Below are positions 15,901 to 27,041 of a stretch of DNA of 64,000 nt, piece after piece; within the stretch, counting starts at the first letter, position 1; the number at the start of each line of letters is the position of its first letter. Under the pieces are notes generated by a model that ran no database searches, was not told where the DNA came from, and worked only from the letters and a program-made list of their open reading frames with translations. The stretch covers positions 124,001 to 188,000 of the forward strand of contig NZ_JAGSYI010000006.1 in assembly GCF_025685625.1 (NCBI RefSeq). Reading direction: 5' to 3'. This stretch comes from Acidicapsa acidisoli. Its GTDB lineage: Bacteria; Acidobacteriota; Terriglobia; Terriglobales; Acidobacteriaceae. The position numbers and the translations under genes were made by a program.

Positions 15901-16760
15901 ACGTGAATCTCGTTGACGGACGGCAGGTCGACCACGCGGACTTTATAGTGCGGCGAAACGAGCGGTCCAGCTCCCACGTAGTACTCGACGTTTTCCGGCA
16001 ATCCGGCGAAAAGGAACTGAAAGGTTGCGCCGGAGTTTGAACCAGAACCGGGCGTGCGCTGCATCGCGACTGGTTCCCATCCGGCGGCGCTTTGGTAGCG
16101 CGCAAATATCTGCGCCTTGCCGGGTTGCATGCCGGTGATGTTGGCAGTGACGAGCTGGTCGCTGTTACGGCGCACGGTTACGTTGCCGGGGGCAACGGAG
16201 AGTACGTACAGAGGAGCGGCGTTCTTCTTAGGACCGGCCCAGAGCAGCGACGCTCCGTAGCCGAGATAGCCGGGTCCGGCAGCGATTATCCAAACGAGGA
16301 CAGCGAGGCAGGCGAGACCAGCGCCGCCAAGAGCGAAGAGATGTTTATCTGGCACGAGTATTGCTGGCTCGGCATCCTGGGCATAGGCCAGAGTGTCTGC
16401 GGCCAACAGTTCGAGGAACGGATTGTTTCCCTGACTGGCCCGTTCCTGGAAGGTTGTCAAACGATGACCTAGTTCGGGATTGGCCGTTTCGGCATGACGC
16501 ACTGACTGAGCCTCAGTCAAGCGCTTAATAGGCAACGCGATCCCGAATACTGCGGCGGCAGCGAGCACGGCTAGAATGACGACACGAGAAAGCGTGACAC
16601 CCTGGGCCGGGAAGGCTAGCTGGTTGAGCACCAGCACCAGAGCCACCGTAACCACGAGCGCCGTGCCGGTAAAGATAGCTGCGCCGCGCAGCCACGCTCC
16701 CAACCGCAGTCTTTTCTGTAGTTGCGCGATATAGGAATTGAGCTCAACGCGGTAGCTCAT
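12978..16760 (-). CDS. Large membrane-anchored DUF4175-like protein, last gene of the MoxR operon
   Basis: Protein of 1260 residues. Two N-terminal helices (about 27-46 and 60-78) and a third near 144-166 precede a periplasmic region with Ig-like strands (VRVVDLPSVNEIHVTYHYPAW; GVKGTAEFGLKDMHLHYSVNG). The second half is long helical, Gln/Ser/Gly-rich and probably coiled coil (EREKELIAATW; ERWEQEMLRREAEQLQRQME), with serine-glycine-glutamine runs and short RSGGNQQT repeats near the C-terminus. The overall form matches DUF4175 proteins of Acidobacteria and Bacteroidetes. The ATG overlaps the stop of the BatA/VWA gene (ATGA). No enzymatic motif is visible. A structural or adaptor role beside the VWA proteins is an inference. 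Confidence 0.8.
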   Translation of the reverse strand: MSYRVELNSYIAQLQKRLRLGAWLRGAAIFTGTALVVTVALVLVLNQLAFPAQGVTLSRVVILAVLAAAAVFGIALPIKRLTEAQSVRHAETANPELGHRLTTFQERASQGNNPFLELLAADTLAYAQDAEPAILVPDKHLFALGGAGLACLAVLVWIIAAGPGYLGYGASLLWAGPKKNAAPLYVLSVAPGNVTVRRNSDQLVTANITGMQPGKAQIFARYQSAAGWEPVAMQRTPGSGSNSGATFQFLFAGLPENVEYYVGAGPLVSPHYKVRVVDLPSVNEIHVTYHYPAWTGMKPVTEEHSGDLRAIEGTDATIQVETDHPLKDGQFVLDNGQTVHLSGGQNNLYQGSIHMEKDGAYHLAAIDEGQPVRLSEDYFIATDKAAPPEISIVRPGGDYRASPIEEVTIGVKGTAEFGLKDMHLHYSVNGGPDREMSLLKTPDARSADGSHTLPLEDFKLAPGDLVSLYATARDGHSEARTDISFIQIDPFEREFSQSQQSGGGAGGSGGQSGDQTEISKREKELIAATWKQQNDKTATPTSAAAQGEFLSQAQQKLRDQVNALSVRMQSRDISEANQEFTDFDRDMRDAAVAMAPSAEKLQSMQWKDAIPLEQKALQALLRAEATFRKIQVAFGQQGGGGGGGGNTGRDLASLFDLELDTAKNQYETAQSANPAQQHEKDVEDTLAKLDALAKRQEDLANRQQNPQQSFQERWEQEMLRREAEQLQRQMEQLAQNGQQNSNGSQSGQASSQRSTSSESRSGGQSGGQADSENQTSSSSPRQESGGQSSGSQSSDSSSSQSSGASSDQRIEQALSRLRQATDAMKRSGDPGSNANAQQAAEKLNQASNLLAGTQKQLASGKMDSLAREAERLRQEERAQAGQIGKFANQQDAPDVTDLNAMLARRHELTQLAQDRQKLSDSLSNLQKNLRETAREMAANQPGVAQGLRNALTEMDNSDLDNRVQRSADWLRRGIDPTANGAEDKVAQGLAQLSQQIQQAQKGMGQAKQGGKQGAGQDNAELVDQVERLRNQIESHFGAMPPSKGNNGQLGRNGQPGTDGQAGQNARGQSGRQSNFGSGQPGGNQQTRSGGNQQTRSGGNGSPSNQESGALSGEVRYGGGQSVDGTVWNNINTGNNRYGHPPQHSAATGASGNPQDAEGNDQFAMRELNQLRQMVTADPQAAKDIAELTRQMQHLDPSRFPGNPAMVEQMHREILSSLDRIELRLQREGVSSDIRTGKPDSVPVGYQESVAEYYRQLSKNP
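13465..13522. repeat. Two perfect 24-base tandem repeats plus a partial third, inside a coding region
   Basis: The unit beginning TTGCCGCCGG and ending GTTTGCTGG occurs at 13465-13488 and 13489-13512; 10 bases of a third copy follow (13513-13522). On the minus strand it encodes the RSGGNQQT repeats of the DUF4175-like protein. The 24-base unit keeps the frame, so copy number can vary without breaking the gene. Confidence 0.8.
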
Positions 16761-18799
16761 GTTTCCTCCCGCTGCGTGCCCATGTAGCCGCTCGCAACCG
16801 CCATTTCGGCAATTGTGGCTGCCAATGCAAGCAGCATAACGTAGAACCAGAGTGATATGGGGTGATATTTCTCTTGATGGTCTACAGCAGTTCCATCCTG
16901 CGAAGCGCCGTTGCCGGAGTTTCCGCTCCAGAGCTGCTGCACGTCTTTGGACAGCGGCTCCAGATCCGATTCGCGGCGGTCGGGATTCACTCCAATCACC
17001 GCGTTGCGCCCGTTGGCGAAGCGGACCTGATAGAAGCCCGCACGGGCGAGGCGAAAGGTTTGCGCGGCGCGGGCTTCGCTTAGCGAAAGCGGCCTACGCC
17101 CATCCGGATCAATCACTTCGACATTTGCCACTGTTCCTACGGGCGCAGCCGTTGCGCGCAGTTGGACGAACGAATCCACGATTCTCGACCCGCTCAGCCC
17201 CTCCGAACCCGACAGGTAGCGGGCGGTGTGATCCACGAAGGCAACGAAGACGGGATGCAACGGCAGATCGTTGGTGAAGTTTTCGAACCCCGAAGCGAAG
17301 AGCATTATGCGGCCCTCGCCAAGCTGTTTTTCCAGCAAGAGCGGCGTGCCGCCGGTGAGCCGTGCCGCCACACGCGCCTGGTCGGGATTCACCTCCGCCG
17401 CATAAAAGACTTTGACATCGGCCCAGCCGCCGTTGTCTCGACCAGGCTGCGTCTGCTGAAGAGCTGGAAAACTGAAGTCGACTTGGCCGACGGCTGCCGG
17501 ATCGCCGCTGCGTGCAAAATTATGCGTATCCCGCACCTCGCCGCCCCATAATGGGATGGCCGAGCGGCGTGGCGCGTTCGTGCCCAGGGTAATCAGCACG
17601 CTGCCGCCCTTGGTGACGTATTGCGCCAGCGTATGTTCGAAGATCGATGGCAGAGCCACGGCGTCCGACAGCACTACGAAGGCAAACCGCGATGGATCGA
17701 TATCGGCGGTCTGCTCTGACGACATTGATTGCAGCACAAACGATCCTTGCGCTGCGGCTGCCAACGCCGCGCTGAAGTAAGTGAACGAGCGCGTATCTCC
17801 AGCGGCATGAACAAAGAGCACCCGCTCCGGATCGGACCTCCGCACTGCGAAGACGCTTTGGTCGTCGTTGGGAAACGCGTCACCGTCAATGGTTACAGTG
17901 CAGCGGTTGAAGCCATATCCGACATCGAGCGGCGCAAAGTCGACGGTTGCATGGCCATTCGCCGGTACATCAATTTTCTTCGTCGCTATCGCCTTTCCGT
18001 TCACGACGAGCGATACGGTCTTGGCCGTTGCAGGCGTGTGGAAGCCAGCAATGACAGCACGGACGCGGGAGCGCCTGGGATCTTTGGGATCGGATAATGC
18101 AGAGGGAGCTTCCACGCTTTCGACTGTCCAGTTCGGCGTCGGGGCTCCTTCCGCAACAGGATGCAGAAACAGCTTCGCATTAACTGGCAGAACCACGTCG
18201 GCGAAGCTGGCCGGCATCGCGCTGCGCTGCATGTCGCTGAAGAGATGAAGATCGATTGGACCATGCACGGTTTCTGCGAGGGAGCGGACGGCTCGTGCGA
18301 GTTCGCCAAAGCTGGCATGACCGTCGCCTGGCTGGATGCTATCGAGCGCAGAGCGAAGTCGGGCGTCGTCGGCGATAGGCTGCGTGAGGATTTCGAGTTG
18401 TCCGCCAAGGGCTATGATCTGCGCTTTGTCGTTATGAGGCTTTGCTGCGAGTGCTGCAAAAGCTTGCCGTTTGGCGTCGGCAAAGCTCGTTCCTGCACGC
18501 ATGCTGAATGAGTTGTCGAGCACGATCAGATGCGTGTGTCCATTGGCATCGGCCGTCGAGCGCCGCACAAACGGATTAGCAAAGGCAAGCACGAGCAGCA
18601 GCAATACGGCAGAGCGCAGGGCGAACAACAGCAGATAGCGGAGCCGCCGGTGCTGCGTCGAACTCTGCGTGCCGCGCTCAAAGAACATGAGCGAGCTTAC
18701 CGGGCGCGGTGTGGTGACATGACGGCGCAACAGATGCACGAATACGGGTACGCCGAGCGCTGCCAGGCCAGCGAGAAACCATGGCGCAAGAAAGCCCAT
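16757..18799 (-). CDS. BatA-type membrane protein with von Willebrand A domain
   Basis: 680 residues. The N-terminus is the BatA module: helix FLAPWFLAGLAALGVPVFVH, the conserved RRHVTTPRPVSSLMFFERG, and a second helix (LLFALRSAVLLLLVLAFANPF). A VWA domain follows with MIDAS motif DNSFSMRAG (DxSxS). The middle has a gatase-like segment (FVVLSDAVALPSIFEHTL, YVTKGGSVLITLGTNAP). One helix closes the C-terminus (WFYVMLLALAATIAEMAVA). The VWA region would be cytoplasmic or periplasmic depending on topology, which I cannot settle. The start ATG shares one base with the DUF58 stop (TGATG), and its stop overlaps the next gene (ATGA). Such proteins are usual partners of MoxR ATPases. Confidence 0.88.
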   Translation of the reverse strand: MGFLAPWFLAGLAALGVPVFVHLLRRHVTTPRPVSSLMFFERGTQSSTQHRRLRYLLLFALRSAVLLLLVLAFANPFVRRSTADANGHTHLIVLDNSFSMRAGTSFADAKRQAFAALAAKPHNDKAQIIALGGQLEILTQPIADDARLRSALDSIQPGDGHASFGELARAVRSLAETVHGPIDLHLFSDMQRSAMPASFADVVLPVNAKLFLHPVAEGAPTPNWTVESVEAPSALSDPKDPRRSRVRAVIAGFHTPATAKTVSLVVNGKAIATKKIDVPANGHATVDFAPLDVGYGFNRCTVTIDGDAFPNDDQSVFAVRRSDPERVLFVHAAGDTRSFTYFSAALAAAAQGSFVLQSMSSEQTADIDPSRFAFVVLSDAVALPSIFEHTLAQYVTKGGSVLITLGTNAPRRSAIPLWGGEVRDTHNFARSGDPAAVGQVDFSFPALQQTQPGRDNGGWADVKVFYAAEVNPDQARVAARLTGGTPLLLEKQLGEGRIMLFASGFENFTNDLPLHPVFVAFVDHTARYLSGSEGLSGSRIVDSFVQLRATAAPVGTVANVEVIDPDGRRPLSLSEARAAQTFRLARAGFYQVRFANGRNAVIGVNPDRRESDLEPLSKDVQQLWSGNSGNGASQDGTAVDHQEKYHPISLWFYVMLLALAATIAEMAVASGYMGTQREET

Positions 18800-19686
18800 C
18801 AGTTGCCTGTCTGTCTCAGCGTGAGGTACTCGCGCAGCGCCAGATCGAGTGGTTGACTGGTGATGAGAAGCTGGTAATCCATGCCTGCTCCGCGAGCGAG
18901 AGATCGAAGCTGCTCGATGTGCGCGTCGATCCTGGCTCGATATGCGGTCCTGGTGTATTCGGGCACGACTTCAATTCTCTGGTTAGTCTCGAGATCGACG
19001 AGGATGGCCGACTCCTTCATCGCAGGCCTGATCTCCTGTGGGTCGAGAATGTGAAAGAGAATCACTTCATTGCCGCGAAAGCGCAGTGGCGCAATGTCGT
19101 TCATGATCGTTTCAGGACTCTCATAGAAGTCCGAGATGACGATGGCGATGCCTCGCCGGTGCTGAGCATTCTGCAAGTGTTGGAGCGGCTTGGCGAAATC
19201 AGTCTGTGCTTGCGGCGTGGCTTGTTCGAGGCCCGCGAAGAGGCGCGCCAACTGTCCTTGCCGCGTGGAGGGACGAATGTATTCGCGCACATCCTCGTCG
19301 AAAACAATGAGTCCCGCGGCATCGCGCTGATTGTGAATCGCCAGATAGAAGAGCGCAGCGGCGAGGTAGCGTGCGTAGTCCATTTTGTTTGGCACGCCCG
19401 AGGTGTATTGCATGGAGTTGCTGGCGTCGAGCAGCACCGTGAGCTGGCTGTTGCTTTCGCCGCGATAGCGCTTGAGATAGCAGCGTTCCGTTCGGGCAAA
19501 GAGATTCCAATCGACGTGACGCAGATCATCTCCCGGTGTATAGGCGCGGTATTCGGCGAACTCCTGACTGAAGCCAAAGTCGGCGGAACGATGCAAGCCG
19601 GCGACGAAGCCGTCCACGACCGTCTTCGCCAGCAGATCGAGCGAGGAGATGCCGGCTAGCACTGCGGGATCGAGGAAACGCTGCAT
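18799..19686 (-). CDS. DUF58 (VWA-like) protein, MoxR partner
   Basis: Soluble protein of 295 residues with the DUF58 hallmark EYRAYTPGDDLRHVDWNLFA near residues 45-64 and a VWA fold with MIDAS-like DASNSM. Further VWA strands are visible (IAIVISDFYESPETI). It starts 11 bases after the MoxR stop and shares one base with the following gene, so the MoxR-DUF58-BatA trio is translationally linked. DUF58 proteins are near-constant neighbours of MoxR ATPases and are thought to act as their adaptors. The role in this organism is not known. Confidence 0.92.
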   Translation of the reverse strand: MQRFLDPAVLAGISSLDLLAKTVVDGFVAGLHRSADFGFSQEFAEYRAYTPGDDLRHVDWNLFARTERCYLKRYRGESNSQLTVLLDASNSMQYTSGVPNKMDYARYLAAALFYLAIHNQRDAAGLIVFDEDVREYIRPSTRQGQLARLFAGLEQATPQAQTDFAKPLQHLQNAQHRRGIAIVISDFYESPETIMNDIAPLRFRGNEVILFHILDPQEIRPAMKESAILVDLETNQRIEVVPEYTRTAYRARIDAHIEQLRSLARGAGMDYQLLITSQPLDLALREYLTLRQTGN

Positions 19687-19697
19687 CCATTCTTCCT

Positions 19698-20726
19698 TTA
19701 TTTCTCGCTGGGCCGCGGTACATACGCCACGAGCTGCCTGAGAATCTCGTCTGTGTCGATGCGGTCGGATTCTGCATGGAAATTGAGCAGAACGCGATGC
19801 CGCAGTACTGGTGTGGTCATGGCTGTGATGTCGTCGTACGTGACGTGATAGCGCTTATATGAGAGCGCCCGCGCCTTGGCAGCCAGAACGATAAACTGCG
19901 CGGCGCGCACACTGGCTCCGTAGTTGACGTACTTCTTGATGAATGCTGGCGCAGTCTCATTCCTGGGCCGCGTCGCGCGTACCAGGCTTATGACGTAGCG
20001 CGAAATAGTTTCGGCAATGGGCACCATGCGCACGAGCTGCTGGAAGTCGAGCAGGTCTTCGGCTGAGGTCACAGCTTCGACCTTTGTCTGGCGAGTGGTC
20101 GTGGTGCGGTCGATGACTTTCAACTCGTCTTCGGCGCTCAGGTCTTCGAGGAGCGCATTGAAGAGGAACCGGTCGAGTTGCGCTTCCGGCAGTGAATACG
20201 TGCCTTCGAGCTCGATGGGGTTTTGTGTTGCCAGCACGAAGAACGGCGCGGGCAGGCGATAGATGTGGCCGCGCACGGTGCATGAGTGCTCCTGCATGGC
20301 TTCGAGAAGGGCGGATTGCGTCTTCGGTGGAGTGCGGTTGATCTCGTCGGCCAGCAGTATGTTGCCGAAGATCGGCCCTTCGACGAAGGTCCATTTGCGA
20401 TGACCGGTTTCGAGATCTTCTTCAATGATGTCGGTGCCGGTGATATCCGAGGGCATCAGGTCGGGCGTGAACTGGATGCGGCGAAACTCAAGGCCGAGCG
20501 CCTCGGCCATGGTTCGCACCATCAGCGTTTTAGCAGTACCGGGCATACCGGTCATGAGGCAATGGCCGCCTACGAAGAGAGCGATGAGGATCTGTTCCAG
20601 CACCTCGTGCTGGCCCACGATCACCTCTCGCACCTGTCGCAGAATTTTTTCGCGCACTACATGGAAGCGTTCGATGCGTTGTTGCAGCAGCTCTGCATCC
20701 TCATCCAATCCAGTAAATGAAGTCAT
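19698..20726 (-). CDS. MoxR-family AAA+ ATPase
   Basis: AAA+ ATPase of 342 residues, the usual MoxR length. Walker A is GMPGTAKT (residues 60-67), Walker B ILLADEINR, sensor 1 LATQNPIELEGTYSLPEAQ, and the AAA-lid carries ISRYVISLVRATRPR. MoxR proteins are chaperone-like ATPases that work with VWA proteins to mature or insert cofactors in target complexes. The start is supported by AAGGAATTCG before the ATG. It sits between the TPR-metalloprotease gene (15-base gap) and DUF58 (11-base gap). Confidence 0.94.
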   Translation of the reverse strand: MTSFTGLDEDAELLQQRIERFHVVREKILRQVREVIVGQHEVLEQILIALFVGGHCLMTGMPGTAKTLMVRTMAEALGLEFRRIQFTPDLMPSDITGTDIIEEDLETGHRKWTFVEGPIFGNILLADEINRTPPKTQSALLEAMQEHSCTVRGHIYRLPAPFFVLATQNPIELEGTYSLPEAQLDRFLFNALLEDLSAEDELKVIDRTTTTRQTKVEAVTSAEDLLDFQQLVRMVPIAETISRYVISLVRATRPRNETAPAFIKKYVNYGASVRAAQFIVLAAKARALSYKRYHVTYDDITAMTTPVLRHRVLLNFHAESDRIDTDEILRQLVAYVPRPSEK

Positions 20727-20741
20727 CGAATTCCTTTCGCG

Positions 20742-22964
20742 TCATTTGGGAGTTGCAGATGCTTGTTGCAGTTGCAGAAGCAGCTTCTGCGCGGGGCGAT
20801 AGCCAGGCGCGGTTTCGAGCGCGGCCAGTACGCTTTCTTCGGCCTTGTCCTTTTGGTTTGCAGCGAAGTACGCTTGCGCAAGACTGAACTGCGCGCCGGC
20901 CTTGTCTACGGGATTGGACGCTATGAGAGCGTTATATTCAACGATGGCGCGGCCATATTGCTGCTGCGCATAGAGCAGGTCGCCTAAATGCCTATGCAGA
21001 TCTTCGTCTTTCACTGGGTAGATGTAATTCAGGCGTTCAAGCGTTGCTACGGCTTCCGCCTTTTCTCCGGCAGCTTCTTCGAGTGCAGCCAGGCGTTTCA
21101 ACATATTCGTCATCTGGCCGCCCTGATGTTCATATGCAGTCAGGATTGCAGCTTCTGCTTTGGAATCGTCGTGAGCCTTGTCCGCTTCGGCCATCAATTC
21201 GTAGGCGTTTGCTTCGTCCACGTACTCGGGATACATGGCAAGCACGGCAGGTAAATCCTTCAGCACAACGTCATACTGTTGCTGCTGCGCCGCAGCGACG
21301 AGCGCCTTGAGCTTATCGCGCCACTGATCGAAATGCGCGACTTCCGGGCCGTACTTCTGGTCGATCCACGCGAGGAATTGCTTGTCGAAGTTCTCTGGCG
21401 CGAGGTTGAGGTCCTGCTGGATCACCTGCTGCGTGCTCTGCATCTTTGCATACGAATGAACCATGTCGAGGAGCTTGCCTTCGCTCCACTTTTCCTTGAT
21501 GAACTCGCAGATGGCGCCGGCCTGGAAGTAGGAAACAATGACCTGCGCGGGATACTCGGGATAGACGAAGCCGCGATCCAGCTTGACGACGGGCAAAAGC
21601 TTCTTGTCGCGTATCGCGACGAGTACATCAGGCGTAACGCGATCGCTCCACTCGGGCGAGCGCTCGCCTTCTTCGTGCACAGCGAGGCCTTCTGTGAACC
21701 AGCGCGGCACGCGATGATTGGTCGCGGTAAGGATGTAGACATGGCTCATCTCATGCCAGAGCGTTGCGCCCCAGTTGAAGTCTCCCGGCTTGCGCGCCGA
21801 TGGGCTGTCCATTGCGACCACGTCGCCAAAGGTCACGCCGAGAGCGCCCAACCCAGGCATGCCCATGGTGCGCACAGCAAAGTCTTCGTGGTCGGGATAG
21901 ACTTCGACCTGCACAGGGCCGGGAAGCTTCATTTGGTATTTCTTTTCATAAGCGGCGAGAATCGAATGCAGTTCCGCCTGCATGTAGGGCTGAAGCAGCG
22001 CGGCCTCTGACTTATGGAGTTTCAGAATCGTTGTGTTATCGCGGATCGTATCGAAGTTCTTGTAGCTGTCGAGCAGTCGCAGGCTGTTGACCGTGGCTTT
22101 ATTACGATAGCCATTGTTGTAGCTCAGTTCCAGTTGCTGGCGCGACTCGTCTTCTTTGCCCAGCCGCATCAGCTCGATGCCCAGAGCCGAATGAGCTGAC
22201 CAAAGACGCGGGGCAGCATCGATCGCCTTGCGGTAATACGTGACTGCATCCTCGTAGCGATAGTGCAACTCAAGCTGATGTGCGACCTGCGCGTATCCTT
22301 CGCCATAATGGGGGTTGATGGCCGCCATCTTAGTGAACCATCCATCGGGAGCGCGATCGGCCAGCAATTCGATAGCTGCATGTGTGGCCATGGCATCAAG
22401 CGAATCAGCCTCAAGGGCGAGAGCTTTTTCGGCCTCGGCAGCGGCTGCATCGCGATCATCGTTTTCAAGAGCTAGTTCAGCCATCAGCTCATGGGGCTCG
22501 GAGAATTTCGGATCGAGTTCGATGGCTTTCGCAAGATAGGTTGCGGCTTTGCCGTCGAAGCCATCGGCGGAGACGCGCGCAAGTCCGAGATATGCCTCGG
22601 CATTCCCGGGATCTTTCTGGAGTGCTTCACGAAAGAGATCGGCAGCATCGGATTGGTTGAAACGCTCGTGCAGCAACAGACCCCAGCGCACTTTGTAAAG
22701 CGCATTGCTGTCTGCTGGCTGTGTGGCGAGACGGAACTGCTCATTGGCGCGATCCCAGTCTTCGACTCCCCAGAAGCCTTCGGCGCGGAGGTAAACATCA
22801 GAGCTTCGCATGAGCGCTTCGAAGCAGGCCTGCGCTTCAGCATCATGGCCGTGCTTGCGCTGCATCCAGCAGTCGTCAGGGACAACGGCCCGGGCCGACA
22901 CGAAGCACGTGAGCAGGATGGCCGGAAGCCAAGTGACGTGTCGTATTGGCTTTGTCTTATTCAT
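20742..22964 (-). CDS. Secreted TPR protein with gluzincin (peptidase MA-like) domain
   Basis: 740 residues. A signal peptide (WLPAILLTCFVSARAV) leads to about eleven TPR-like helices (for example DPGNAEAYLGLARVSADGF, SAHSALGIELMRLGKEDES). A metalloprotease domain has HEMSH at 404-408 and a downstream WFTEGLAVHEE that supplies the likely third zinc ligand, so the HExxH site looks intact. More TPRs follow to the C-terminus. The fold and motif match peptidase MA-like proteins of the gluzincin group. Its start overlaps the stop of the caspase-like gene by 8 bases. The substrate is unknown. Its place inside a MoxR operon suggests processing of exported operon products, which is inference. Confidence 0.85.
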   Translation of the reverse strand: MNKTKPIRHVTWLPAILLTCFVSARAVVPDDCWMQRKHGHDAEAQACFEALMRSSDVYLRAEGFWGVEDWDRANEQFRLATQPADSNALYKVRWGLLLHERFNQSDAADLFREALQKDPGNAEAYLGLARVSADGFDGKAATYLAKAIELDPKFSEPHELMAELALENDDRDAAAAEAEKALALEADSLDAMATHAAIELLADRAPDGWFTKMAAINPHYGEGYAQVAHQLELHYRYEDAVTYYRKAIDAAPRLWSAHSALGIELMRLGKEDESRQQLELSYNNGYRNKATVNSLRLLDSYKNFDTIRDNTTILKLHKSEAALLQPYMQAELHSILAAYEKKYQMKLPGPVQVEVYPDHEDFAVRTMGMPGLGALGVTFGDVVAMDSPSARKPGDFNWGATLWHEMSHVYILTATNHRVPRWFTEGLAVHEEGERSPEWSDRVTPDVLVAIRDKKLLPVVKLDRGFVYPEYPAQVIVSYFQAGAICEFIKEKWSEGKLLDMVHSYAKMQSTQQVIQQDLNLAPENFDKQFLAWIDQKYGPEVAHFDQWRDKLKALVAAAQQQQYDVVLKDLPAVLAMYPEYVDEANAYELMAEADKAHDDSKAEAAILTAYEHQGGQMTNMLKRLAALEEAAGEKAEAVATLERLNYIYPVKDEDLHRHLGDLLYAQQQYGRAIVEYNALIASNPVDKAGAQFSLAQAYFAANQKDKAEESVLAALETAPGYRPAQKLLLQLQQASATPK

Positions 22965-23883
22965 CGAGCTTCCCCTGCACTTGTGCCAGTTCTACCAGAG
23001 CATCCGTGAGCTGTTTCTTGTAATCCGCAGGATCCATCGCCGCTTTCTGATACTTCAGGATATCTATCTTCTGCTCCAGTTCTTCCTTCCTGGCCAGTAA
23101 CGCGAGCTTCGCCGGATCGTTGGCGGCCGTTTGACTCGCGCCGAGGCGCAGCAGCGTGAAGCTCGACAACAGCGATCCCTCACCATTGCCGGATTCGCGC
23201 ACAGCTTCACCGTGACCCACGTCGTTGAAGACCGCGTGTTCAGTTGCAAGCCGTTTCTCAGCATCGTAAAAAGCAGCGGTTTTCTGTGTTGTGTAACGAA
23301 AGGCTTCCATGGCACTGACGGAGTCGCTTTTGTCTGTGTCGACGGAAGGGTCTTGCAATGCTTCTATCCAATACCGAACGAAGACGGTTGCATTTTTCTC
23401 AGTGCCGGATTTGGTCGCGGCGATGACGGCGCGACCCGACTTCTCGAGCGCCGACACCGCGCCGCCGCTGGCGCTGGTGGTATCGACGATGAGTTGGCGG
23501 CGCGATGGGATGCGGCCGCACAAGGCGGCGATTTCGCCTGCAGTCACGTCAGGGCCTATGAGATTAAATTTGTATTCAACGCCATCGAATGAGCCGTGGC
23601 CGATGAGGATCAGCACAAAGTCATCTTCGGCTTTCGCCTCGCGCGCGACTGAGCTCATCGCGTCGCGGAACTGCGCTGCCGTGGCTTGCGCTCCTTTGAG
23701 AGTAACGACGTGTGCGGTGGGGCCTGAGGATTGGAAGATGCGGTCAAGGTCCTTTGCGGCTGATGTAAAACGCTGCTCGTAGTCGAGCTCTCCGCCAAGA
23801 CCAGCGACGATGACGTAGTAAGTCGTGGCGTGCGCCTGGAGCGCGAAGAAACACGCGGAAGCCAATAAGATCGCGCGCTTCAT
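22957..23883 (-). CDS. Secreted caspase/C13-like protein lacking the usual catalytic Cys
   Basis: About 308 residues. A signal peptide (MKRAILLASACFFALQAHA) precedes a clan CD-like alpha/beta fold. The histidine block is LILIGHGSFDG (His96), where active members have His-Gly. The cysteine block is QLIVDTTSASGGAV (residues 130-143): after the Asp the typical Ala-Cys is replaced by Thr-Thr-Ser, so no nucleophilic Cys is seen. The C-terminus is a predicted coiled coil (LLARKEELEQKIDILKYQKA). I start it at 23883, where ATGA overlaps the stop of the VWA/GATase gene, instead of 27 codons upstream, because the signal peptide begins there. It could be a pseudo-protease scaffold or use a Ser. Confidence 0.72.
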   Translation of the reverse strand: MKRAILLASACFFALQAHATTYYVIVAGLGGELDYEQRFTSAAKDLDRIFQSSGPTAHVVTLKGAQATAAQFRDAMSSVAREAKAEDDFVLILIGHGSFDGVEYKFNLIGPDVTAGEIAALCGRIPSRRQLIVDTTSASGGAVSALEKSGRAVIAATKSGTEKNATVFVRYWIEALQDPSVDTDKSDSVSAMEAFRYTTQKTAAFYDAEKRLATEHAVFNDVGHGEAVRESGNGEGSLLSSFTLLRLGASQTAANDPAKLALLARKEELEQKIDILKYQKAAMDPADYKKQLTDALVELAQVQGKLDE

Positions 23884-26165
23884 ACGATTCCCCACTTTCG
23901 CCGCAGCAGCCACTCGGCGATTGGCAGGCCTAGCAGGAATAGGAACACGATGGGCATGTTCCACAGCTCTTTGACGGTACGGACTGAGATGCCGGCTTCG
24001 GAGTAGGAGATGTCACGCGGCAGATTCTTCAATTCGGAGGGTTTCCAATAGCGACCGCCGGTTTGCGATGCGAGTTGTTCGAGAAAGGCGCGATTCTGCT
24101 CCGTGTGAAAGTTCTCTGCGACGCCGTTCTCGCGCTGGAACGTGACTACGTCGCGGCCCAGTTCCTGCTGCTGGCTGCTTGCGGATTCCGCTGCCACTTC
24201 CGCCAGATACGTGCCGGGTTTCTCCGCCGTCCACTCTGTCTGGTATTGTCCTGGCGTGGTTTGGGAGGGCGTTAGTTCGACGAGGGCATCGACACCGCCG
24301 GGGCCGACGATGTGTGCGGTGACATGCGCGTCTGCTGCAGGTTGAAATGTCCGGTCGCGTACCTGCGCGATAAGCTGCACGCTTCCCTCATCCATGAGCA
24401 GGCGCGACGGAATAGAGGCAGCAACCGGACCGGGTGACTCGGCAACCAGCCAGCGCAGGAGTTGCTGCCAGAAAAGATCGTGGGAGGGATCGCCAAGCGC
24501 TTCACTCATCTGCCAGCGCCAGGTTCCGCCAGTGGCCAGGATGGCCGTGCGCCCGCTTCCGTAGCTCTGCGTGACGAGCAGCGGCAATGTGCGACGTCCG
24601 GTATGTAGATCGACTAGTTCGGTCGCGCCTGGTTTGAGGGAACCGGGGTCTTCATAGTCCGCGAGATAGGTCAGCTTTTTCCAGCGCTCCGCATTTTTTT
24701 CGGGATCGTCGAGCAGGCGCGTGATGGGTGAGTCGATGCCCGCCGCAGTCAGTTCTACGGTGGCGGGATTGCGGCGGAAGTTGTGATTACCCGATGGCAG
24801 AAATGTGGGCAGCAATTCACTCAAGCTGGAGGCGCGCCAGCCTCCGTCGCTGAGAGAAGAACTGCCGCCGAGAAAAAGAAGGCCGCCACCACGGCGATCG
24901 ACATACTCGCGCAGCAGTTCCTGCTGCAAGGGGGTGAAGTAATCGGCGGCGACGGAGCCGATGATGATGCCGGAGTAGCTGAAGAGATCCTCGGCGCGCA
25001 CGGGAAAGCCTCCGGCGAGCTCGGCCGGGTCGCTGATGCCCTGGCGATAGATCTTGTTTTCGCTTGTGCGCAACATAGATACGATCTGTACTGTCGGATC
25101 ATCCTCTTCTGCGCGGCGGATGAACTTGTACTCCCAGCGCGGCTCGCCCTCAATGTAGAGAATGCGCCGTTTGGCGTTGCCGACCACGATGGGACGCGTC
25201 ATCACGTTGTTGGTGATCGATTCCTCGCCGGGGAGCGGCTCTACTGCAAAGGCGAGACTCTTTGCGCCCGCACTGCCAGCGGGAAAAAACAACGGTTCGG
25301 TCTGCAACTGGCCGTCCGTCGTCAATGTGATCTGGCGCTGCGCGAGAGTCTTATCACCGTCACGTACAGTGAGCGTTGCCTGGCGCCCCGCATAGCCGTG
25401 TTGCATCAGAGTGACCGCGGTTGAAATCTTCGCATTCACCACAGCGCTTGCCGCCACACTGACGTCTTCGATCTCTACATCGTGTTCATGTTCGGGCTTA
25501 CCGAACCCTATGGTGTGCACGGGCAAATGGCGCTCCCTGAGGGCCTGCAACGCATCTGAGCCGATACCGGAGCTGCCGATGCCTGCTGAGTTCTGGCTTC
25601 CGTCACTCAACAGGAGTATGGCTCCGACCGGGAGGTCTCGAGTTTCTTGCGCGAGTTGCTCCAGCCCTTGACCGATGTGAGTAGCAGCATCTACGGGCGC
25701 GATTTCATTCGGAGCACCGACTTGCGTCAGTCCTCCCCCAAGTCGGTAAATGCGCGTCTGGAAGCGATTTTTCAGTCCAGCCAAAACACCGTTATCCAAC
25801 GCTGCGATGGCGGCGTCCTCGCGCGTTTTTCCGTCGCCGTCGGCAATACCCATGCTGCGCGATCCATCGACTACTACGGCGATGATGTTCTGCCTCGAAC
25901 TCAGTTCGCCTACGATCATGGCCGGCTGCCACAACAGGAGCAGCAGCAGCGCAACCAAGGTTGACTGCATGCCCCAGATCGCGCCTGCCCTGCCGCCGTG
26001 GACCTTCGCTTCTGAGTGTCGCAATCGCCAGCGGATGAGCAGAGCCAGCCCTCCGACGGAAATCAAGATGAATACAGGCAGCAGCCAAGCCGGCCACGCA
26101 CTGAGCAGCGCGAACCGGCCTTTGGTAAACACCGGGCTCGGGTACTTGAATAGGAACTGAAACAT
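23880..26165 (-). CDS. VWA / glutamine-amidotransferase-like membrane protein
   Basis: 761 residues. The N-terminus has helices (SAWPAWLLPVFILISVGGLAL; IWGMQSTLVALLLLLLWQP). A VWA domain carries MIDAS motif VVVDGSRSMGIADGDG (DxSxS). A class I glutamine-amidotransferase-like domain follows (RRILYIEGEPRWEYKFIRRA; YSGIIIGSVAADYFTPLQQE; RRGGGLLFLGGSSSLSDGGW). The catalytic Cys of true amidotransferases is not seen, so the domain is probably binding only. An Ig-like stretch and a C-terminal helix (LWNMPIVFLFLLGLPIAEWL) close it. It follows the DUF4159 gene by 63 bases and its stop overlaps the caspase-like gene (ATGA). Confidence 0.85.
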   Translation of the reverse strand: MFQFLFKYPSPVFTKGRFALLSAWPAWLLPVFILISVGGLALLIRWRLRHSEAKVHGGRAGAIWGMQSTLVALLLLLLWQPAMIVGELSSRQNIIAVVVDGSRSMGIADGDGKTREDAAIAALDNGVLAGLKNRFQTRIYRLGGGLTQVGAPNEIAPVDAATHIGQGLEQLAQETRDLPVGAILLLSDGSQNSAGIGSSGIGSDALQALRERHLPVHTIGFGKPEHEHDVEIEDVSVAASAVVNAKISTAVTLMQHGYAGRQATLTVRDGDKTLAQRQITLTTDGQLQTEPLFFPAGSAGAKSLAFAVEPLPGEESITNNVMTRPIVVGNAKRRILYIEGEPRWEYKFIRRAEEDDPTVQIVSMLRTSENKIYRQGISDPAELAGGFPVRAEDLFSYSGIIIGSVAADYFTPLQQELLREYVDRRGGGLLFLGGSSSLSDGGWRASSLSELLPTFLPSGNHNFRRNPATVELTAAGIDSPITRLLDDPEKNAERWKKLTYLADYEDPGSLKPGATELVDLHTGRRTLPLLVTQSYGSGRTAILATGGTWRWQMSEALGDPSHDLFWQQLLRWLVAESPGPVAASIPSRLLMDEGSVQLIAQVRDRTFQPAADAHVTAHIVGPGGVDALVELTPSQTTPGQYQTEWTAEKPGTYLAEVAAESASSQQQELGRDVVTFQRENGVAENFHTEQNRAFLEQLASQTGGRYWKPSELKNLPRDISYSEAGISVRTVKELWNMPIVFLFLLGLPIAEWLLRRKWGIV

Positions 26166-26228: not shown

Positions 26229-27041
26229 TCAATGAGTCATTCCATAGATGATGTAATCCAGCCCGACACGAAAGGCCATCGACGCGAAGGTTTCGGGATA
26301 GTTCGGATCGTCCGCCCACTCCCATGCATCGCCCAAGTGCATGTTATGACAGATAGCGACGATAATGCGGCCCTTGTCGTCGCGAATCGCACGCCACTTA
26401 GGCTGATATCCGTCTTTCTCGTAAGTGCGGCCAGACCAGACGTATTGTTCGCCGGGTATTTGCATCTTATCGTCGATGTCGTAGAGGGTGTGGAAGATTT
26501 CATCTCCGCTTTGGAGGTTTTCAATAGGCTTGTCGGGCAACACCTGCCGCATGCCATTCATGAAATTCTCCCAATCTTCAGTGCCGTGGAAATCATCCAC
26601 CATGAGAAAGCCGCCTTTGAGGAGATACTCCCGCAGCCGCTTGGCTTCCGCGTCTGTAAAGGCCCAGTTCTGCACCTGAACGGCGTAAATCCAGGGATAA
26701 TTGAAGATTTCATCGGAGTCGAGCGTTACCACCTGCTCCGTAGGGCGGCCGTCGATGCGGGTCAACCGGTGCATGGCAATGAGAAACTGGCGGTCAGCTT
26801 TGGGATAGTCGCGCGACCAGGAATTGAACCAGCGGCGGCCATAGCCACCAAAGGTCTGGGCACTCGCAGCGTAAGAGAGGCGCGAGGAATAAGCCAGGCG
26901 GGACCAGTAGAACTCCGCCTTCACATTGGTGGGTGAGTCGTCGTTGCCAAAGCCAAAGTCAGCCGTCTGCTGCCAGGCCCAGAGGGCTCCGCAGAAGGCC
27001 ATGGCTGAGATCGCCGTGATGGCAATACGCGAAATCTTCAT
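26229..27041 (-). CDS. DUF4159 exported protein, first gene of the MoxR operon
   Basis: 270 residues with an N-terminal signal or anchor (MKISRIAITAISAMAFCGALWAW has about 20 hydrophobic positions). The DUF4159 pattern is visible: AEFYWSRLAY, NYPWIYAVQVQNWAFTDAEA, KGGFLMVDDFHGTEDW, ICHNMHLGDAWEWADDPNYP. The fold resembles a class I amidotransferase without its catalytic residues. The start has GGAGG at 7-base spacing. It faces the multicopper oxidase gene with 193 bases between, so that gap holds the operon promoter. DUF4159 genes are regular neighbours of MoxR and DUF4175 genes in Acidobacteria and Planctomycetes; function is unknown. Confidence 0.85.
   Translation of the reverse strand: MKISRIAITAISAMAFCGALWAWQQTADFGFGNDDSPTNVKAEFYWSRLAYSSRLSYAASAQTFGGYGRRWFNSWSRDYPKADRQFLIAMHRLTRIDGRPTEQVVTLDSDEIFNYPWIYAVQVQNWAFTDAEAKRLREYLLKGGFLMVDDFHGTEDWENFMNGMRQVLPDKPIENLQSGDEIFHTLYDIDDKMQIPGEQYVWSGRTYEKDGYQPKWRAIRDDKGRIIVAICHNMHLGDAWEWADDPNYPETFASMAFRVGLDYIIYGMTH

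Follow-up and report, generated by a model that had tools for sequence, protein, structure and literature searches.

A predicted legumain-like protein family of Acidobacteriota that lacks the catalytic cysteine and is encoded beside a VWA gene

In the portions of the literature compared here, caspase-fold pseudo-proteases are C14 proteins of Cyanobacteria and Alphaproteobacteria, metacaspases of trypanosomes, or effector domains of MoxR-vWA systems. Among bacterial orthocaspases, 858 of 9,994 were reported to be without the catalytic dyad, the pairs YS, YA, and FS being common in Rhizobiales; in the pseudo-orthocaspases (C14) of Cyanobacteria and Alphaproteobacteria the specificity pocket is reported to be conserved (PMC6426788). 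For bacterial metacaspases, it was observed that 84% keep the dyad and that Ser is the commonest substitute for the Cys (PMC3501461). Metacaspase 4 of Trypanosoma brucei (TbMCA4), in which the Cys is changed to Ser, is described as catalytically inactive, still functional, and membrane-linked (PMC6657590). In MoxR-vWA ternary conflict systems, about 70% of the caspase domains at the effector position were reported to be inactive and were proposed to be dominant-negative regulators or peptide-binding domains (PMC7159879). BatA-type VWA membrane proteins are encoded in the Bat (Bacteroides aerotolerance) operon and have been proposed to form a periplasmic complex (PMC3557215). Here we describe P0001, a protein encoded in a 64,000-nucleotide stretch of Acidicapsa acidisoli (contig NZ_JAGSYI010000006.1, positions 124,001–188,000 of the forward strand; hereafter the window). 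Its role is probably to bind partners and not to cleave them, since the catalytic Cys is missing from P0001 and from the relatives examined.

The former cysteine site and the predicted fold

The preliminary description of this gene had reported an intact His-Gly block and, at the place of the D-A-C-x-S/A-G block of active clan CD enzymes, the residues DTTSASGG. The His block is as described. The second block is also present and has no Cys, but its Asp134 does not correspond to the Asp in D-A-C, since it is Ser137 that falls on the Cys site. Gap-free profile alignments were obtained with Arabidopsis metacaspase-4 C139A (AtMC4) and with L131 and L134, which are Cys-bearing proteins from the phylum of P0001. 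In all of these, Ser137 occupied the position of the catalytic Cys and Ser139 that of the Ser of C-x-S-G. For a third relative (L126), one inserted residue was required in the alignment of the Cys block. No other Cys is suitably placed, as the preliminary description had also held: P0001 has just two, Cys11, located in the segment that resembles a signal peptide, and Cys122, which precedes Ser137 by 15 residues. Cys122 was rejected as a nucleophile; it marks the commonest Cys column, yet Cys is found there in just 24 of 100 aligned members.

Position 137 was then scored in 156 distinct rows, comprising the strong matches from the phylum and 25 loci from named genomes (160 distinct rows, less four fragments without the site). 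The residue was Ser in 128 rows, Glu in 9, Asn in 5, Thr and Ala in 4 each, and Pro and Gly in 3 each. Cys occurred in none, and P0001 is thus no single outlier: the comparison of orthologues proposed in the preliminary description found the homologues to be without Cys as well. A non-hydroxyl residue was present in 24 of the 156 rows, all of which kept His96. The rows are not independent: clustering left 147 groups at 95% identity, 117 at 80%, and 69 at 60%. At 60% identity, 51 of the 69 clusters had Ser at position 137 and 18 another residue (non-hydroxyl in 15), with no Cys and with His96 in 69/69. All 24 rows of the alignment of close relatives (A2) have Ser137.

Gly95, His96, Gly110, Asp112, and Glu215 were invariant (156/156). 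Asp182 and Glu193 were kept in 155 of 155 rows, Thr157 in 153 of 156, and Ser139 in 151, with Ala in the other five. Those five (L177, L193, L197, L198, and L200, reading TSSAG, with Ala for the old C-x-S-G Ser) are the sole departures from Ser139 that were found. The residue had been Ser in 100/100 rows of the alignment A3, and the exceptions appeared once the remaining strong matches were included. A universal Ser139/His96 dyad was rejected, with Ala139 in 5 of the 156 rows and the same Ser in 15 of 16 Cys-bearing open reading frames (ORFs). Eight members of A3 (L028, L029, L032, L034, L066, L069, L072, and L099) read T-[S/T/N]-C-S-G, with Cys at position 138, and seven of them fall in one clade.

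When the 156 rows were placed on a tree by FastTree, with column 137 excluded, the minimum number of hydroxyl/non-hydroxyl switches at this position was 10. Seven such changes were counted on an earlier tree (103 rows), outgroup states excluded; that tree had two long-branch outgroups, no bootstrap, and column 137 included. Such counts are blind to gain versus loss, and the root is unsure. We infer that repeated loss is the simpler story, because Ser is found in most clades of the 103-row tree.

More distant relatives were also examined as 18 ORFs from 17 loci, hand-picked from weak profile matches. The Cys motif was present in 16, the exceptions being L140 and one frame of L139. Therefore, Cys-bearing clan CD proteins exist in the same phylum. 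The 366-residue ORF L140 is itself clan CD-like; it keeps a GHGYLDEAG block and has ALDSPRS in place of the Cys block.

The AlphaFold2 model of P0001 was built from the 24 sequences of A2 (P0001 and 23 orthologues, 54–74% identical to it) and showed a clan CD fold, with a predicted local distance difference test score (pLDDT) of 85.9 and a predicted template modelling score (pTM) of 0.84. Legumain was the first-ranked structure in Foldseek (E 1.8e-8). With VIA-align 2, the model superposed on human legumain 7fqi_B (Z 20.6, root mean square deviation (rmsd) 2.3 Å, 193 residues) and on AtMC4 C139A (6w8r, Z 20.3); the top row was prolegumain 4nol (Z 21.4, rmsd 5.3, 232 residues). In the superposition suggested in the preliminary description, the predicted fold is thus of clan CD, nearest to C13 legumain, and not the unrelated fold that would have spoken against that description.

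P0001 alone had no Pfam or NCBIfam match at E<=1, and against the sequences of solved structures it matched just antibody chains (E 0.5–0.9). The profile of 100 homologues (A3) matched metacaspase-4 by sequence, with E 4.1e-6. A3 holds 100 of 105 distinct rows (median pairwise identity 35%) and omits L016, L018, L019, L021, and L007, which are near-duplicates or truncated and all have Ser137. Among its members, matches at E<=1 numbered 48 for C13 (PF01650; best 1.1e-9), 8 for C25, and 5 for Peptidase_C14 (best 0.002, with a profile that is not the p20 profile of PMC6426788); P0001 itself matched neither C13 nor C14 at this threshold. PF01650 scored over its cut-off in 4 of 199 genomes; in two cases (L147 in G216 and L148 in G189) the match falls inside one of the Cys-less family. 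Taken together, the AlphaFold2 model, Foldseek, VIA-align 2, and the profile matches make membership of clan CD, judged by predicted fold, well supported. P0001 has the predicted alpha/beta caspase-hemoglobinase fold and the dyad His of H-G that follows strand 3, and lacks the catalytic Cys that follows strand 4; like a pseudo-orthocaspase, it has lost a dyad residue and kept the predicted fold.

Putative export signal, operon and distribution

The preliminary description gave no strand. The gene is read on the minus strand (Table 1), and the same frame on the plus strand is interrupted by stops. As had been stated, it lies between VWA and metalloprotease genes; the former is upstream and the latter downstream. 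The ATG of P0001 overlaps the stop of the VWA gene by 4 nucleotides (ATGA), and there is a second overlap, of 8 nucleotides, between its own stop and the start of the metalloprotease gene.

Table 1. Features of the P0001 locus, with positions in the window
Feature	Position	Strand	Basis
Cys-less clan CD (legumain/C13-like) protein P0001, apparently exported, 308 residues	22957..23883	-	translation, AlphaFold2, Foldseek, VIA-align 2
Signal-peptide-like N-terminal segment, residues 1–19 (KR, hydrophobic run, AHA end)	23827..23883	-	judged by eye
His block LILIGHGSFDG, residues 91–101, with His96	23581..23613	-	translation
Former Cys block DTTSASGG, residues 134–141; Ser137 at 23473-23475	23461..23484	-	gap-free alignments
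EF-hand-like loop, residues 182–193, D-x-D-x-S-x-x-x-S-x-x-E	23305..23340	-	pattern in aligned members
C-terminal helical hairpin, residues 257–307	22963..23115	-	AlphaFold2 secondary structure
VWA-type membrane protein, 761 residues, upstream	23880..26165	-	weak Pfam matches and motif by eye
TPR + Peptidase_MA protein, 740 residues, downstream	20742..22964	-	Pfam; HEMSH and downstream Glu
DUF4159 protein	26229..27041	-	Pfam 1.5e-43
MoxR-type AAA+ ATPase	19698..20726	-	AAA_3 1.8e-60
DUF58 VWA-like protein	18799..19686	-	DUF58 4.4e-42
BatA-type VWA membrane protein	16757..18799	-	BatA 2.8e-16
DUF4175-like large protein, 1260 residues	12978..16760	-	Pfam 3.3e-5, under curated cut-off

Export of P0001 to the periplasm is suggested by its N-terminal segment, as judged by eye and by a simple hydrophobicity rule, not by SignalP; no lipobox was observed in the segment by eye. 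Of the 100 aligned members, 59 have 15 or more residues ahead of the domain, and a hydrophobic 10-mer was found there in 56 of them. The EF-hand-like pattern D.[DN].[DNS]...[STDN]..E was present in 100/100 aligned members. Pfam EF-hand_5 gave weak matches in 12 of the 100 (best E 0.02).

The VWA matches of the upstream protein were weak (E 0.07–0.08), all of them under the Pfam cut-offs, and a D-G-S-R-S motif of the metal ion-dependent adhesion site (MIDAS) type was recognized by eye. The same protein gave a GATase1_like match (2.7e-5, just below the Pfam cut-off), a weak sign of a second domain type. The enzyme relatives of the GATase1-like domain use Cys. In the TPR/Peptidase_MA protein, HEMSH is followed by a downstream Glu, in an arrangement like that of zinc peptidases. 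A PADLOC scan of seven operon proteins returned matches for MoxR alone, and these were weak. An anti-phage system was rejected, P0001 being without a PADLOC match.

Homologues of P0001 were found in 10 of 61 related genomes, its own included, and the VWA protein was found in the identical 10 (p 1.1e-11, a value that assumes independent genomes, which they are not). The VWA partner is missing from the same genomes as P0001, and therefore the pair was gained or lost together. Nine of these 10 genomes, and none of the remaining 51, had strong matches to the TPR/metallopeptidase protein (E<=1e-40); with weak matches included, 55 of the 61 have one. When 84 loci were inspected, the VWA gene was directly upstream in 75, with a 4-nucleotide overlap in 24 of these. 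In the rest, a VWA gene was nearby (four loci), the contig start cut the region (two), or the upstream gene was TPR/metallopeptidase-like (three). Overlaps other than 4 nucleotides are rough, as each gene was taken to start at the first Met close to the domain. TPR/metallopeptidase was the next recognized downstream gene in 57 of the 84 loci. In the light of this co-occurrence and overlap, the periplasmic scaffold role offered in the preliminary description is plausible, with the VWA protein as a candidate partner.

Profile searches over the phylum gave matches in 148 of 396 genomes, about 113 of them strong (E<=1e-40, counted by hand). This spread of homologues, together with the predicted clan CD fold, speaks against a chance resemblance. 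The tally of 148 includes matches with E of about 1e-3 to 1e-8, and those examined were mostly ordinary caspase-like proteins. Neither the Cys-less gene nor the VWA partner was found in any of 14 genomes of the same genus (G001–G014); the pair is therefore patchy even within the genus. Outside the phylum, a plasmid of Gemmatirosa kalamazoonensis (Gemmatimonadota) carries consecutive genes for VWA, the Cys-less protein, TPR/metallopeptidase, DUF4159, MoxR, DUF58, BatA, and DUF4175. Its Cys-less protein reads VDASSASADF, and the gene is divided over two frames. Readings split across two frames were met in L143 and L146, by real damage or sequencing error. The same gene order was seen in L061, a contig filed under a gammaproteobacterial metagenome-assembled genome, whose protein is 56% identical by tblastn and 60% in A2; the contig is perhaps misbinned.

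A proposed binding role and its alternatives

We consider P0001, with a probability of about 0.72, to be an exported pseudo-legumain whose old cleft binds a peptide or protein segment and which acts with a VWA partner in an envelope complex remodelled by MoxR. The protein would be exported to the periplasm and would be the binding subunit of a complex organized around the VWA protein of the upstream gene, and the MoxR/DUF58/BatA module would remodel this complex. The former active-site cleft may bind a peptide or protein segment, perhaps with calcium via the EF-hand-like loop. P0001 would not cleave the bound segment, and any proteolysis in the complex would be due to the neighbouring HExxH metallopeptidase. 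The switching of residue 137 between hydroxyl and non-hydroxyl argues that there is no universal nucleophile, which makes a non-catalytic binding subunit the best reading.

Several observations weigh against such a subunit. His96 was never lost in the rows examined, and it is not needed under plain loss of catalysis. With 128 of 156 rows, Ser occupies the Cys site more often than expected for a free site, and nine of the 156 rows have a Cys one residue past it, at position 138. At L091, L105, and L125, the upstream gene best matches the TPR/metallopeptidase query and no VWA gene was found. Of the 75 adjacent VWA proteins, 66 showed a MIDAS pattern.

The preliminary description had left the choice between a pseudo-protease and a Ser-based variant, and the former fits better. 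A Ser-based clan CD hydrolase, with Ser137 as the nucleophile in place of Cys and His96 as the base, could explain Ser137 in 128/156 and 24/24 rows (156-row set and A2) beside the invariant His96. It is nevertheless quite unlikely, because in 28 of the 156 rows the residue is other than Ser, and 24 of those rows carry Glu, Asn, Ala, Pro, or Gly, all without a hydroxyl, yet keep His96. That 137 changes while His96 stays argues that Ser137 does not act as a general nucleophile and that the cleft has another role. The changes on the tree, though they do not tell the direction, point the same way, and TbMCA4, with its Cys changed to Ser, is reported to be an inactive pseudopeptidase (PMC6657590). 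A nucleophile shifted to Cys138 or Ser139 is very improbable. The near-constancy of Ser139 and the clustering of seven of the eight A3 rows with Cys138 in one clade would be in its favour, but Ser139 is replaced by Ala in five rows and Cys138 is missing from 147 of 156. Moreover, Ser139 appears to be an inherited residue, because 15 of the 16 Cys-bearing ORFs share the Ser of C-x-S-G.

The invariance of His96, Asp112, and Glu215 at a median pairwise identity as low as that of A3 raises another explanation, in which a new site, catalytic or for a metal, is made up of these residues and P0001 is an enzyme of another kind. In HMMER alignments, Asp112 faces Thr in L131 and L134, and it therefore looks family-specific, as far as these two Cys-bearing relatives allow; the comparison covers only these two. 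Glu215, however, may serve the region of the calcium site, and the invariant Gly95 and Gly110 suggest a structural role. A rebuilt site of this kind is unlikely. It is likewise unlikely that a rebuilt site, whether catalytic, metal, or peptide-sensing, defines an undescribed envelope machine of Acidobacteriota and Gemmatimonadota, its protein being linked to VWA and having a loop of the calcium type. As for a decaying gene or local outlier without function, the absence of the gene from the 14 genomes of the same genus might be taken to favour it. Against this, the ORF and operon are intact, the genomes that lack the gene lack the VWA partner too, and homologues with the strict residues occur phylum-wide and on the Gemmatimonadota plasmid. 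Decay is scarcely credible, being refuted by the conservation.

Comparison with described systems

P0001 resembles the C13 legumains (PF01650) in its predicted fold and His-Gly block, and legumains are its closest solved structures. It differs in lacking the catalytic Cys, as does its family, and in having a loop like that of an EF-hand and, in the model, a helical hairpin at the C-terminus. Like P0001, the pseudo-orthocaspases are bacterial caspase-fold proteins with the catalytic dyad lost; they often replace both dyad residues (YS, YN, YA, FS), and QC and HA are reported as well, according to the sections of PMC6426788 cited here. The word Acidobacteria does not occur in the main text of that paper. 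In the P0001 family, unlike the pseudo-orthocaspases, the His is kept in 156/156 rows and the Cys site is replaced. Trypanosoma brucei metacaspase 4 is a eukaryotic metacaspase and is not known to be encoded beside VWA and MoxR genes. Its likeness to P0001 is the Ser in place of the catalytic Cys (PMC6657590).

The MoxR-vWA conflict systems share with this locus the combination of MoxR and vWA modules with caspase-like domains (PMC7159879). In those systems, as far as the cited part of the paper describes them, the vWA protein and the inactive caspase form one fusion protein, whereas P0001 is a separate protein encoded beside DUF58 and BatA genes (PMC7159879); the word DUF58 is absent from the main text of that paper. 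MoxR and VWA-type proteins, the couple that in the conflict systems is joined by a VMAP, iSTAND, FtsH, or beta-propeller third component, are present in the operon of P0001. With the Bat operon, the locus has in common the BatA-type VWA membrane proteins, and MoxR also occurs in PMC3557215. In contrast to our locus, no clan CD protein is mentioned in the available part of that paper. We found no literature on DUF4159 and, going by titles and abstract openings with most subscription journals outside the scope, no account of the P0001 family.

With the P0001 family, an operon of the MoxR/DUF58/BatA type gains a conserved component that is apparently exported, and the function of Bat has been termed elusive (PMC3557215). 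A Cys-less, C13-like family that extends over one phylum and is tied to a VWA protein also offers a natural system for the study of non-catalytic functions of the caspase cleft. Pseudo-caspases as such are already known, and it is the C13-like, His-retaining, operon-linked family that appears to be new. Compared with the described systems, and as read from the sequences, the P0001 family would be distinct in being C13-like, in keeping the His in every row examined, in its operon, and in being a stand-alone protein whose N-terminus resembles a signal peptide.

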